From Marinobacter szutsaonensis (lineage in GTDB: Bacteria; Pseudomonadota; Gammaproteobacteria; Pseudomonadales; Oleiphilaceae), in contig NZ_BAAAFC010000001.1 of the NCBI RefSeq assembly GCF_039523335.1, positions 806,001 to 870,000 on the forward strand: a DNA stretch of 64,000 nt. The letters run 5' to 3'. Below the pieces are notes generated by a model. The model was not told the origin of the DNA, ran no database searches, and was given only the letters and a program-made list of their open reading frames with translations. Both the position numbers and the translations under genes were made by a program. Of this stretch, positions 35,345 through 38,874 are shown piece after piece. The number at the start of each line of letters is the position of its first letter. Position 1 is the stretch's first letter.

Positions 35345-36313
35345 TCACTGACCGGACACTCGCGCCTCCAGTCGGTCCACCTCATCCGACAAACGCACCA
35401 GGCGAGATGTCAGCTGCGCACGGGACGCATCGATGGAATCCACGGTCTGCTTGAGCGAGGCCAGCTGGTTACGCAGCGAACGCACCTCCGAACTGCCAGC
35501 CACACCGTCGGTCTTCTTCTCCAGAGCAGTAATCCGACTTTCCATGCCACTGATCCCCAGCTTCTGCTCCTGCTCGAACCGACGGATACGGCTCTCGATC
35601 ACCTGATCCACATCCGCCATCTGCTGGCTCAGTTTGGTAATCTGATCCGAGGCCTGGGCGGTGTTTTCCTTCAGCGCAACAATCGACGTCTGCGTCTGCT
35701 CTTCAAGCGCGGCAATCTCCGAAGACAGAGAAGCCCTGGCTTCTTCGAGTGTGGTTCCCAGACTGGCGACCGCCTTCTTCTCTTCCTCCAGCGCCGACTT
35801 CAGCGTCGCCAGCTGCTCCTCATGCTCATCCAGCCGCGCCTTGTTCCGCTCATTGGCGACAACCCACAGCTTGCGGATCTCACTGGATGCCTCCTCAAGT
35901 CCCGACTTGTTCGACGCAATCTGCTCCTCCAGCGACTGCCCCCGCTCCTGCAGATTCTCCCCGGTCTCCGAGAGCTCTCCCTCAAACCGGGCCAGCGCCA
36001 ACTTGCTCTGCCGCGCCCAGTAATCCGCTTCCTCCAGCTGCGACTCCAACGCCTGAATCCGCTGGTTCTGGGAATACCAACCGGCCACCGCAGCAACCGC
36101 AACCGCAATCAACAACAACCAGACCGCCGCCAGACCACCCTTGCCGTTGCCTCCGTTACCGTTACCAGTCGGCGGCTTCCCGGCCCCGCCAGAACCACCG
36201 GACCGAGCAGCCGGCGCAGCGGTGGCCTTTTTTGGAGCCGGCCGTTTCCGCTCGCTACTGCCAATAGGTGCGTCTGCTCGGAGTTCGTCGTCATCTGGGC
36301 GGATGGAATCCAT
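35345..36313 (-). CDS. Membrane-anchored coiled-coil protein
   Basis: 322 residues from MDSIRPDDDEL, with AGGAG six bases upstream; 42 further upstream codons are open but lack a site. A basic, Pro/Ala/Gly-rich cytoplasmic segment (about 20-60) precedes one membrane helix (LAAVWLLLIAVAVAAVAGWY). About 240 residues of periplasmic coiled coil rich in Glu, Leu and Ala follow. The plan resembles structural or division-associated envelope proteins. No enzymatic motif. Confidence 0.7.
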   Translation of the reverse strand: MDSIRPDDDELRADAPIGSSERKRPAPKKATAAPAARSGGSGGAGKPPTGNGNGGNGKGGLAAVWLLLIAVAVAAVAGWYSQNQRIQALESQLEEADYWARQSKLALARFEGELSETGENLQERGQSLEEQIASNKSGLEEASSEIRKLWVVANERNKARLDEHEEQLATLKSALEEEKKAVASLGTTLEEARASLSSEIAALEEQTQTSIVALKENTAQASDQITKLSQQMADVDQVIESRIRRFEQEQKLGISGMESRITALEKKTDGVAGSSEVRSLRNQLASLKQTVDSIDASRAQLTSRLVRLSDEVDRLEARVSGQ

Positions 36314-36484
36314 TACTGCTCCTGGGTCTGGGTTCTGGTTGTTCGTTTTTCTATTAGTCGGATCATTGAAAAGCCGTACCCGATTCACTCTGTCTGAGTT
36401 ATCGACGTTTTTCAGGTCAACGACCGATAATACATGCACTTATGAACAGGGTGAAATGAAGCTCCGATAATGTGGCATGGGGCC

Positions 36485-36579
36485 GGGGTCTGAAGAACGC
36501 TTTCTTCTGACCCCTCTTTGGCGGCAACCACGGAGTCTGACCTCAAGACGGGGTCAGATGAAGGCTTTCATCAGACCCC
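36485..36579. repeat. REP-like BIME unit
   Basis: Forward AAG-class hairpin at 36485-36514 and reverse ATG-class hairpin at 36550-36579, separated by exactly 35 nt. Confidence 0.88.
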
Positions 36580-36621
36580 TGAGGATGATCCCTGCTTTGC
36601 AGGCATACCCGCCAATGCCTG

Positions 36622-36733
36622 GGGCGGCGTTGAACCGGACTTTCCAGAAATGTCGAAGGCCAGGGATGGCCTGAGACAAGCGCACATGGATGTGCTCGTA
36701 GCGGTTTCTGGAAAGTCCGGTTCAACGACGCCC
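36622..36733 (+). repeat. Cloverleaf inverted-repeat element A
   Basis: Arms 36622-36650 and 36705-36733 pair over 29 bp with one mismatch. The outer 18 nt read GGGCGGCGTTGAACCGGA, unlike the other copies; the inner 11 nt CTTTCCAGAAA are shared. The 54-nt core folds into two short hairpins, GGCCA-GGGA-TGGCC and GCACA-TGGA-TGTGC. Lies 80 bp before purE. No open reading frame. Confidence 0.85.
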
Positions 36734-36813
36734 TTCACAGGACTCGCCAAGTTGCATGCCAAGTAACCAAAACATACAATGGCCGGCTTTCCAATTATCT
36801 CAGGATGTTGCAT

Positions 36814-37305
36814 ATGCAGCCGCTTGTAGGACTCATCATGGGCTCCAAATCCGACTGGCCCACCATGGAACACGCCGCTAACATGCTCGAAAAACTCGGC
36901 GTACCCTACGAAACCAAAGTCGTCTCCGCCCACCGCACTCCAGACCTGCTCTTTGACTATGCCAAAACCGCCGCCGACCGCGGCCTGAAGGTCATCATCG
37001 CAGGCGCCGGCGGAGCCGCGCACCTCCCGGGCATGGTCGCCTCCCAGACCGCCCTGCCCGTACTCGGTGTACCGGTCCAGTCCAAAGCCCTGAACGGCCT
37101 CGACTCCCTGCTGTCCATCGTCCAGATGCCGGGCGGTATCGCCGTCGGCACCCTGGCCATCGGCAAAGCGGGAGCCACCAACGCCGGCCTGCTGGCAGCA
37201 CAAATCATCGGCACGTTCGATGATAATGTCCGCAAAGCGGTCGAAGAGTTTCGTTCGACTCAGACCCAGACGGTCCTCGATAATCCGGATCCGAGCGATC
37301 AGTAA
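36814..37305 (+). CDS. purE: PurE, N5-carboxyaminoimidazole ribonucleotide mutase
   Basis: 163 residues from [19 protein letters not shown] lies 11 nt upstream. The phosphate- and nucleotide-binding [16 protein letters not shown] and [14 protein letters not shown] motifs are all standard for class I PurE. It converts N5-CAIR to CAIR in purine synthesis and works directly after PurK, whose gene lies 450 bp downstream beyond two inverted-repeat elements. Confidence 0.97.
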
Positions 37306-37349
37306 GACCTGATAACCCAAATCAAGCTGGCATACCAAACTTGGGAGAT

Positions 37350-37461
37350 GGGAGTCTTAGGGGTATCCTTTCCAAAACACGCTACGAGCACGTCCATGTG
37401 CGCTTGTTTCGGGCCGTCCATGGCCCTCAACAGTTTTGGAAAGGATACCCCTAAGACTCCC
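37350..37461 (-). repeat. Cloverleaf inverted-repeat element B
   Basis: Arms 37350-37378 and 37433-37461 pair perfectly over 29 bp. The outer 18 nt are GGGAGTCTTAGGGGTATC, specific to this copy; the inner 11 are CTTTCCAAAAC. The 54-nt core is the reverse complement of the A/C type core, with hairpins around GGCCATGGACGGCC and GCACATGGACGTGC on the minus strand. Confidence 0.88.
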
Positions 37462-37574
37462 CATACTTATTGCGATAGCCGTTCAAGCGCAGAGAAGGGC
37501 GAACTTGTCGAGTAGTTGAGAAATCTGACTAGTGCGATCGCAGTGAGAACAAGCGGTTTTGCACAGGGTTTGGT

Positions 37575-37690
37575 TGAGCGGGTTGGGCAAGGCTTTCCAA
37601 AACTGTGCGGAGCCATGGATGGCGGAGCCCAAGCGTCACAGGGACGTGCCGCCAGGAGCGTGTTTTGGAAAGCCTTGCCCAACCCGCTCA
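37575..37690 (+). repeat. Cloverleaf inverted-repeat element C
   Basis: Arms 37575-37603 and 37662-37690 pair perfectly over 29 bp. The outer 18 nt are TGAGCGGGTTGGGCAAGG; the inner 11 are CTTTCCAAAAC as in B. The 58-nt core has the same order of two hairpins (GCCATGGATGGC, then CACAGGGACGTG). Ends 65 bp before purK. Confidence 0.88.
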
Positions 37691-37755
37691 CACTCCCAAA
37701 GTCAGACCAGAAATCAGACTAAACTCATATGCCAAACCATGGCAGGAGAACACAA

Positions 37756-38874
37756 ATGAGAATTGGTGTACTAGGCGCCGGCCAACTCGGGCGCATGCTG
37801 GCCCTCGCCGGATACCCGCTGGCCAAGACCTTTGTATTCTACGACATGTCCGGCAGCCCCAGCGCCGGGCTCGGCGAAGTCATCATCGACCGCGAAGGCC
37901 AATACCTGGACGACTTCCTGTCCCGGGTTGACCGCGTCACCTACGAATTCGAACACCTGCCGGTCGAGGTTGCCGAAAAACTGGCCAAAGAAAAGCCGGT
38001 TCACCCCTGCCCACGAGCATTGCAGGTGTGCCAGAACCGCGAAGCCGAGAAAACCCTGTTTGGCCAACTGGGCATCCCCACCCCCGAGTGGAAAATTGCC
38101 GACAGCGCCGAATCCCTGAAAGCCGCCGCCGAAGAGCTCGGCTGCCCCGTGGTCGCCAAGTCCATCACCGAAGGCTATGACGGCAAGGGCCAAGCGGTAC
38201 TGAAAGATCCGGAGGATGCCGAAAGCGCTTGGGAGAGCATTGGCCACCAGCGCCTGATCGTCGAGAAGTTCGTCAACTTCAAGCGTGAAGTGTCCATCAT
38301 TGCGGTGCGCGCCGAAGACGGCGATCTCGCCTTCTACCCGATGGCGGAGAACACCCACCACGAAGGCATTCTGCGCTACTCCATCGCCCCGGCCCCCGGC
38401 CTGGAGAGGCACGTCCAGGAAGACGCCGAGCGCTACATCAAGGCACTGTTGAACGAATTGGACTACGTCGGCGTATTGACTCTTGAGCTGTTCGAGACCG
38501 AGGACGGGCTGGTGGCCAACGAGATGGCACCCCGGGTGCACAACTCCGGCCACTGGACCATCGAAGGGGCCATGACCAGCCAGTTCGAGAACCACATCCG
38601 CGCCGTCAGCGGTCATCCGCTGGGAAATGTCGCGCCCCGTGGTCTAAGCTGTATGATCAATATCATCGGCGAACACGGCGACATCGAGCGCATTCTGGAA
38701 CTGCCCTACGCGCATGTTCACCTCTACAATAAGGGGGAACGGCCGGGCCGCAAGCTGGGTCACGTGAACATTCTGGCGGACAGCTACGAGGAGCTGGTCT
38801 GGCGGGTCCGGAACTGCGCGCAGTTCCTGCCCGGTTGCCCGGAGTTTAAAAGTTCTTTGACACCAAAGGGTTGA
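37756..38874 (+). CDS. purK: PurK, N5-CAIR synthetase
   Basis: 372 residues from MRIGVLGAGQLGRM with GGAGA upstream. The N-terminal dinucleotide-like motif is followed by an ATP-grasp domain (VVAKSITEGYDGKGQ, EKFVNFKREVSII, ANEMAPRVHNSGHWT). It makes N5-CAIR from AIR, ATP and bicarbonate for PurE. The gap to purE is unusually filled with two large inverted repeats, so the two genes may not be simply co-transcribed. Confidence 0.97.
   Translation: MRIGVLGAGQLGRMLALAGYPLAKTFVFYDMSGSPSAGLGEVIIDREGQYLDDFLSRVDRVTYEFEHLPVEVAEKLAKEKPVHPCPRALQVCQNREAEKTLFGQLGIPTPEWKIADSAESLKAAAEELGCPVVAKSITEGYDGKGQAVLKDPEDAESAWESIGHQRLIVEKFVNFKREVSIIAVRAEDGDLAFYPMAENTHHEGILRYSIAPAPGLERHVQEDAERYIKALLNELDYVGVLTLELFETEDGLVANEMAPRVHNSGHWTIEGAMTSQFENHIRAVSGHPLGNVAPRGLSCMINIIGEHGDIERILELPYAHVHLYNKGERPGRKLGHVNILADSYEELVWRVRNCAQFLPGCPEFKSSLTPKG

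Follow-up and report, generated by a model that had tools for sequence, protein, structure and literature searches.

Three elements around purE of Marinobacter szutsaonensis, here termed A, B, and C, are on balance probably copies of a dispersed structured-RNA family that is related to the TwoAYGGAY RNA, serves as a distributed decoy for CsrA, and has stems shaped by template switching. The elements lie in a window of 64,000 nucleotides, which is the whole stretch of DNA that was analyzed. They belong to an extensive repeat family of bacteria that has received little notice and that resembles structured RNA. No published account of this repeat family was found in the literature within reach, to which subscription papers mostly did not belong.

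Elements A, B, and C and the extent of their family

Element A (36622..36733) lies on the plus strand and is built from two arms (36622-36650 and 36705-36733) that enclose a core (36651-36704). Element C is found on the same strand (37575..37690; arms 37575-37603 and 37662-37690, core 37604-37661). The GGA strand of element B is the minus strand (37350..37461; arms 37350-37378 and 37433-37461, core 37379-37432), so that B is reversed relative to A and C, as had been proposed from the sequence. The genes of the locus are purE (36805..37305, plus strand; NCBIfam TIGR01162, 221.2 bits) and purK (37756..38874, plus strand; NCBIfam NF004679, 433.1 bits, and TIGR01161, 367 bits), and an iron superoxide dismutase gene comes next after them. 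The closest named record for the purE-purK locus is that of Marinobacter pelagius, with records very near the window possibly omitted.

A covariance model built from 25 copies (R1) scores A with 112.6, B with 120.3, and C with 119.4 bits. In the genome of M. szutsaonensis, it yields 106 matches, from which 16 antisense duplicates and five partial or weak matches are subtracted, leaving at least 85 full-length copies. This number is a lower bound because scoring covered 150 of 1676 first-look candidates. Four of the five partial or weak matches sit at copies of a long form of the element, in which about 85 extra nucleotides form hairpins at the second loop (in this genome at C1:1816675, 2355824, 2386973, and 2388453 and at C4:86914). 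The long form additionally occurs at L014, L045, and L247, and its marker is matched with at most one mismatch in 39 of 61 same-genus genomes, where not every match is confirmed as an element.

R1 matches 60 of the 61 same-genus genomes, M. szutsaonensis included, with 0 to at least 61 matches per genome (61 candidates were scored in each, which gives lower bounds). Across the class, matches at an E value of 0.001 occur in 54 of 369 genomes and 49 of 272 genera, again with the own genome included; ten candidates per genome were scored under stricter filters in this survey, and the numbers are lower bounds as well. A sample of the phylum contains 16 matches in 299 at an E value of 0.0001, and all 16 listed belong to the class. 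One core query returned nothing from plasmid and phage collections, and one pattern returned nothing from viral contigs; a second, faulty query gave two weak plasmid matches with E values of 0.1 and 0.4.

The arms are 29 nt long in A, B, and C, with one mismatch in A and zero in B and C. Folding z-scores for both strands of the three elements (six values) range from -7.7 to -11.9, and 0 of 200 shuffles per strand were as good. The original prediction that each element carries a stem of its own sequence that still pairs is confirmed by these values. The arm length of exactly 29 bp holds for the three elements, but genome-wide the length is 28: among the 85 copies, Watson-Crick pairing stays at 80-100% from position 1 to position 28, counted outward from the core, and drops to 52% at 29 and 19% at 30. 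Arm lengths spread widely around 29, which had been named as an outcome that would count against the idea, are absent in this genome and partly present in other genera. There, the helix end is softer, and the paired runs of 109 copies are mostly 25-33 nt long with some reaching 45, a register shift of up to 3 nt being permitted. Similarly, the inner CTTTCCAAAAC that had been taken as conserved is near-identical across A, B, and C, but it is not family-wide, as many of the 85 copies differ from it. The arms have no conserved sequence, and the outer 18 nt of different copies in the genome typically share 7 and at most 14 of 18 positions. A simple MITE was rejected on this ground, since conserved terminal inverted repeats are missing. 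In base composition, the 5′ arms of the genome are very rich in G, with 802 G, 295 C, 218 T, and 215 A over the outer 18 nt of all 85 copies. Asymmetric pair frequencies in stems have been explained by template switching (PMC8794818).

At the Rfam cut-offs, no name was obtained for any element in the window or for 20 loci from other genera. The one sensible sub-threshold match is TwoAYGGAY (RF01731), which reaches 38.2 bits in B and 37.0 bits in C at a cut-off of 43 and is not listed for A. In the whole genome, 0 of 41 TwoAYGGAY matches reach the cut-off of 43, with the best one at 42.0 bits. The taxa of TwoAYGGAY are given in a table as gut, Gammaproteobacteria, and Clostridiales (PMC2864571). 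The present elements resemble it by a long, poorly conserved external stem and by two terminal loops that come close to the AYGGAY type, which are found on the same strand. Where TwoAYGGAY is described with a tandem GA in a stem (PMC4333381), inspection by eye shows GA/GA in the A and B class and GGA/GGA in the C class. The elements differ from TwoAYGGAY in that the cut-off is never reached, the loops read ANGGAN instead of AYGGAY, and at least 85 copies are dispersed in a single genome. Other candidates were set aside: microRNA matches, which all lie far below the cut-off and are yielded by any long hairpin; integron attC sites (by eye only); and intrinsic terminators, for which 36300-37800 holds one terminator-like match, inside B, with 1.7 expected.

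The two-loop head and its strand

The core of each element harbors two ANGGAN hexaloops. In A, these are AGGGAT (36662..36667) and ATGGAT (36686..36691), and in C, ATGGAT (37615..37620) and AGGGAC (37640..37645), all on the plus strand. In B, both the first (37416..37421) and the second hexaloop (37392..37397) read ATGGAC on the minus strand. The GGA-to-GGA spacing in the three elements is 21-22 nt when counted on the sequence. A search rule that demands loops closed by three pairs, with GG at positions 3-4, finds two such loops in 82 of the 85 cores of the genome and a single loop in the other three. Outside this rule, A occupies loop position 1 in 100% and position 5 in 99%, and all four letters occur at position 2, where G accounts for 38%, A for 7%, and T and C together for just 55% of the loops. 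None of the 85 antisense cores passes the rule, which is partly by construction since GG is demanded. Among 109 copies from other genera, the same rule detects two loops in 65, one in 36, and three in 8.

The predicted fold is also reflected in covariation. An alignment of 103 rows to the model has 93.6% paired cells compared to 52.0% in shuffled rows and a covariation score of 1.001 compared to 0.203, where the alignment itself is fitted to the structure. The alignment drew on 95 of the 109 loci from other genera, and two of its rows are antisense duplicates (L257 and L194). Both-sided changes across genera are found in P2 and P3.

Structures of RsmE with RNA show an ANGGAN hexaloop, and the best CsrA site spacing is described as more than 18 nt (PMC7652899). 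The paired ANGGAN hexaloops of the elements lie more than 18 nt apart, as for CsrA/RsmA-type sites, and the genome of M. szutsaonensis contains one CsrA gene. A single CsrA/RsmA dimer could clamp both hexaloops atop the long helix, and at least 85 copies per genome would together form a distributed decoy that titrates CsrA. For TwoAYGGAY, CsrA binding has been predicted by others (PMC4333381). Like CsrB/RsmZ-type sponges, the elements present GGA within hairpin loops, which would suit a CsrA dimer. Those sponges combine many sites in one RNA (22 GGA sequences in CsrB, PMC7652899), whereas here many loci carry two sites each on a long predicted stem of near-fixed length. The stems would be copy-specific because only pairing and length matter there. 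For an essential decoy, however, R1 counts ranging from 0 to at least 61 among same-genus genomes are odd.

If there were no strand preference, G.T and A.C mismatches would be expected to be equally common in the stems. Read on the GGA strand, the stems of the genome contain 46 G.T, 5 A.C, and 32 other mismatches at positions 1-26. The ratio of G.T to A.C is 18:0 where both neighboring genes are antisense, so that the bias in this genome can arise without neighbor-gene transcription; it is 8:0 and 11:1 in mixed gene contexts and 9:4 where both neighbors are sense. The 88 copies at four orthologous sites contain 55 G.T, 6 A.C, and 44 other mismatches, and the one-sided changes at these sites comprise 62 G.T, 4 A.C, and 39 others. 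In the 109 copies from other genera, 94 G.T, 16 A.C, and 57 others are counted with registers optimized and run ends left out, and the first 29 of such copies give 11, 7, and 14, respectively, when the model sets the registers. Selection seems to act on the GGA strand as a hairpin in its own right. Given the loops, the selected form is most likely RNA, which would entail transcription of the GGA strand.

Single-stranded DNA also tolerates G.T better than A.C, so that the bias does not prove the RNA nature of the hairpin. The main rival reading is accordingly a DNA-level repeat without RNA function, in which a single-stranded DNA hairpin of the GGA strand is the substrate of a transposase or repair system, in a REP/BIME or MITE-like manner. 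Besides the milder effect of G.T in DNA, the multicopy, intergenic occurrence in mixed orientation, the tandem arrays in other genera, and the deletions and inversions typical of hairpin DNA agree with such a repeat, as does the divergent orientation of 11 of 11 close pairs in the genome, which is as in a composite repeat. We regard it as rather unlikely nonetheless, as the loops are fixed where CsrA reads and variable at the letters that CsrA ignores, P2 and P3 change on both sides across genera, the arms are free of conserved sequence, and the core query and the pattern came back empty from plasmid and phage collections and from viral contigs, respectively. Like REP/BIME sequences, the elements are intergenic palindromic repeats that often occur as inverted pairs, but they measure about 112 nt, and their stem sequence is not conserved. 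REP/BIME repeats are marked by a conserved short palindrome that bears a GTAG or CGTC tag; by eye, a GTAG tag was not noticed in the elements.

Genomic context and flanking sequences

By the gene calls of the present analysis, 84 of the 85 copies in the genome are intergenic, and the remaining copy shares 69 bases with a called gene. The orientation of the copies to their neighboring genes is -- in 28, ++ in 26, +- in 19, and -+ in 12 cases. Neighboring copies that lie less than 170 bp apart (gaps of 51-165) are divergent (-,+) with facing 5′ ends in all 11 cases, one of which is the pair of B on the minus and C on the plus strand with its gap at 37462..37574. The close pairs in other genera, where most loci have only 200 bp of flank, include four divergent, one direct, and zero convergent ones. 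One idea is that the divergent gaps hold a putative bidirectional promoter. A promoter-like match is absent from the B/C gap, and the search for a shared promoter motif upstream of the 85 copies gave nothing convincing. The promoter scan of the window returned four matches with 0.7 expected; two on the plus strand precede A by 150-220 bp, a third precedes C by about 290 bp, and the fourth, on the minus strand, precedes the divergent gene.

Both flanks of the 85 copies contain motifs of width 18. The 5′ motif, ctca.aGGTtTG, reaches an LLR of 118.2 compared to 53.9 in one shuffled set, and the 3′ motif, C.CCcAA..tagaaggc, reaches 204.1 compared to 61.4 in one shuffled set. In C, they were placed by eye at 37557..37574 and 37691..37708 on the plus strand. 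Judged by eye only, the two motifs may pair with each other.

The position of the copies bears on a second rival, in which cis-acting leader or 3′-end hairpins control or stabilize the mRNA of each neighbor. Many copies lie 20-60 nt from the next gene, and A upstream of purE and C upstream of purK are both in sense. This role is quite improbable for the family, given that 28 of the 85 copies are antisense to both neighbors, that copies are gained, lost, and found in flipped orientation at one site, and that the likely purE promoter, which was assigned by eye and is absent from the scan list, lies downstream of A.

Other palindromes are found beside the family. A second palindromic family, GGGGTC(T/A)GA(A/T)GAA..TTC(T/A)TC(T/A)GACCCC, occupies 47 places of the window from 1195 to 62803. 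Its members often form inverted pairs at a spacing of about 35 bp, and their centers vary; 2 of 27 neighboring pairs are exact reverse complements including their private center (42334/42401 and 50831/50896). Copies of the palindrome GTAGGTCGGATTAGCGAAGCGTAATCCGAC, which we take to be a GTAG-type REP, are located between paired elements in the gap between two of the orthologous sites treated below, S1 and S2 (L232, L234, L249, and others).

Inheritance of the arms and upkeep of their pairing

Four sites around one gene of M. szutsaonensis (S1-S4) were compared with 29 other Marinobacter genomes, using the best 30 of 111 matching loci; the site loci had been searched in 120 genomes, of which 111 matched. 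The site set consists of 88 best-strand matches out of 120 rows. Of these, 82 entered the likeness test, which left out five rows in minority orientation and one misregistered row. Copies are orthologous between species. The likeness of the arms is 0.516 within a site across genomes and 0.415 otherwise, and within a genome it is 0.416 compared to 0.415 after permutation (132 of 300 permutations). The likeness of the cores is 0.739 within a site, 0.742 within a genome, and 0.686 otherwise, and the within-genome value lies above all 300 permutations (mean 0.690; 0 of 300). The arms are therefore inherited in place, and the cores appear to be exchanged or converted between copies as well. Conversion between copies would be the simplest cause of the partial within-genome resemblance of the cores; since cores that share a site resemble each other more as well, such conversion is partial at most.

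Arms can also be shared between copies. A tandem array at L344 (G660:C1:94415-95435) comprises five units about 227 bp apart with largely common arms and several G.T pairs, and the arms of two tandem copies at L345 are again largely common. Sharing of arms between elements had been named as another outcome that would count against the original idea, and it is largely seen in these tandem copies from two other genera. A new copy can consequently bring its arms along. The copy-specific arms look like a reflection of divergence, not of birth, and were probably not made at insertion. At the site orthologous to A, two near relatives (L013 and L016) lack the element. Such empty sites had been proposed as a check of whether one arm is native sequence, and neither BLAST nor inspection by eye revealed an arm there. 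A clean young insertion was not found.

An inverse copying at insertion, in which a short inverted repeat inserts and a fixed length of neighboring DNA is copied as the second arm, would account for copy-specific arms and for their sharp end at 28-29 bp in the genome, but is highly improbable in view of arms that are inherited at orthologous sites (0.516 versus 0.415), tandem copies that largely share arms, the armless empty A site in L013 and L016, and core-less remnants, for which the full element at S1 and S2 of near relatives makes deletion the better reading. The original prediction had offered strong selection for a long stem or the copying of adjacent DNA as the cause of the matched arms. 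Selection is supported, together with a strand preference (46:5:32), and the copying is not supported as an insertion event; inverse copying appears to act later instead, in the form of template switching.

Base pairs of the stem seem to change as units. In 67 comparisons of genome pairs and sites, with fourfold divergence up to 0.33 and genomes recurring between comparisons, fourfold sites differ by 25.4% with a ts/tv of 0.74. Stem pairs are changed on both sides in 22.1% (ts/tv 0.76) and on one side in 8.6%. Among nearest neighbors per site, distant ones included, the both-sided changes comprise 150 of the transition and 167 of the transversion type (0.90), which matches more loosely with a fourfold ts/tv of 0.58 over 19 nearest-neighbor pairs. 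Single comparisons vary: at S1, L232/L239 and L240/L243 display zero arm change at a fourfold divergence near 0.3, and at S4, L224/L225 retain only 3 of 24 pairs. If pairing were rescued by a second mutation, transition-type pairs should clearly lead, and the rate should lie below neutral. The near-neutral rate and the matched ts/tv fit better to a one-step copying between the arms. A change in one arm would be copied to the other, most likely through template switching during DNA replication, and each base pair would then drift as a single unit.

Template switching homogenizes arms and inverts spacers (PMC8604942), and a role in maintaining RNA hairpins has been proposed for it (PMC8794818). 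Cores that are inverted or deleted inside kept arms are what it predicts. At S4, L244 and L243 carry cores of opposite orientation inside similar arms. The purE-purK site falls into groups with plus and minus cores, whose arms are identical at 11.8 of 22 positions compared to 9.4 between different sites of the own genome. For these core inversions, replacement by another copy is conceivable as an alternative. The center is lost in L238 at S2, where both outer arms are left, and in L225 at S1, where mainly one arm is left; at purE-purK, L030, L032, L034, and L041 have arms without a core. Insertion into ready-made palindromes was considered for the latter four and for L238 and was set aside; for S2, deletion is the simpler reading in view of the full element found there in near relatives of L238. 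At three further purE-purK loci (L018, L027, and L038), C-like outer arms surround an unrelated short sequence (CTTTATAAAAAAAC..) in place of the core. The elements thus resemble the inverted repeats homogenized by template switching (PMC8604942) in their arm homogenization and spacer inversion, with the difference that a whole multicopy family is concerned here and that strand-specific selection is added. Judging from these sequence comparisons, template switching would be the process that keeps the arms matched.

The puzzle of the copy-specific arms is best explained by a vertical, pair-wise evolution of the stems in combination with a partly concerted evolution of the heads. More tentatively, the elements may represent a widespread, unnamed gammaproteobacterial RNA family, whose dozens of dispersed loci would constitute a collective CsrA decoy with stems as sequence-free rulers held in register by template switching and heads that evolve partly in concert. 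If this is true, about 165 unrecorded CsrA-type sites exist per cell, perhaps enough to shift a global regulator. RNA annotation would miss these sites because none of the copies tested brings the published model up to its cut-off. The family would additionally supply many orthologous long stems, accompanied by matched neutral sites, that make the upkeep of stem pairing directly measurable in bacteria, including the question of whether it proceeds via G-U intermediates or by one-step copying. The family would then be a natural laboratory for neutral evolution whose unit is the base pair instead of the single base.
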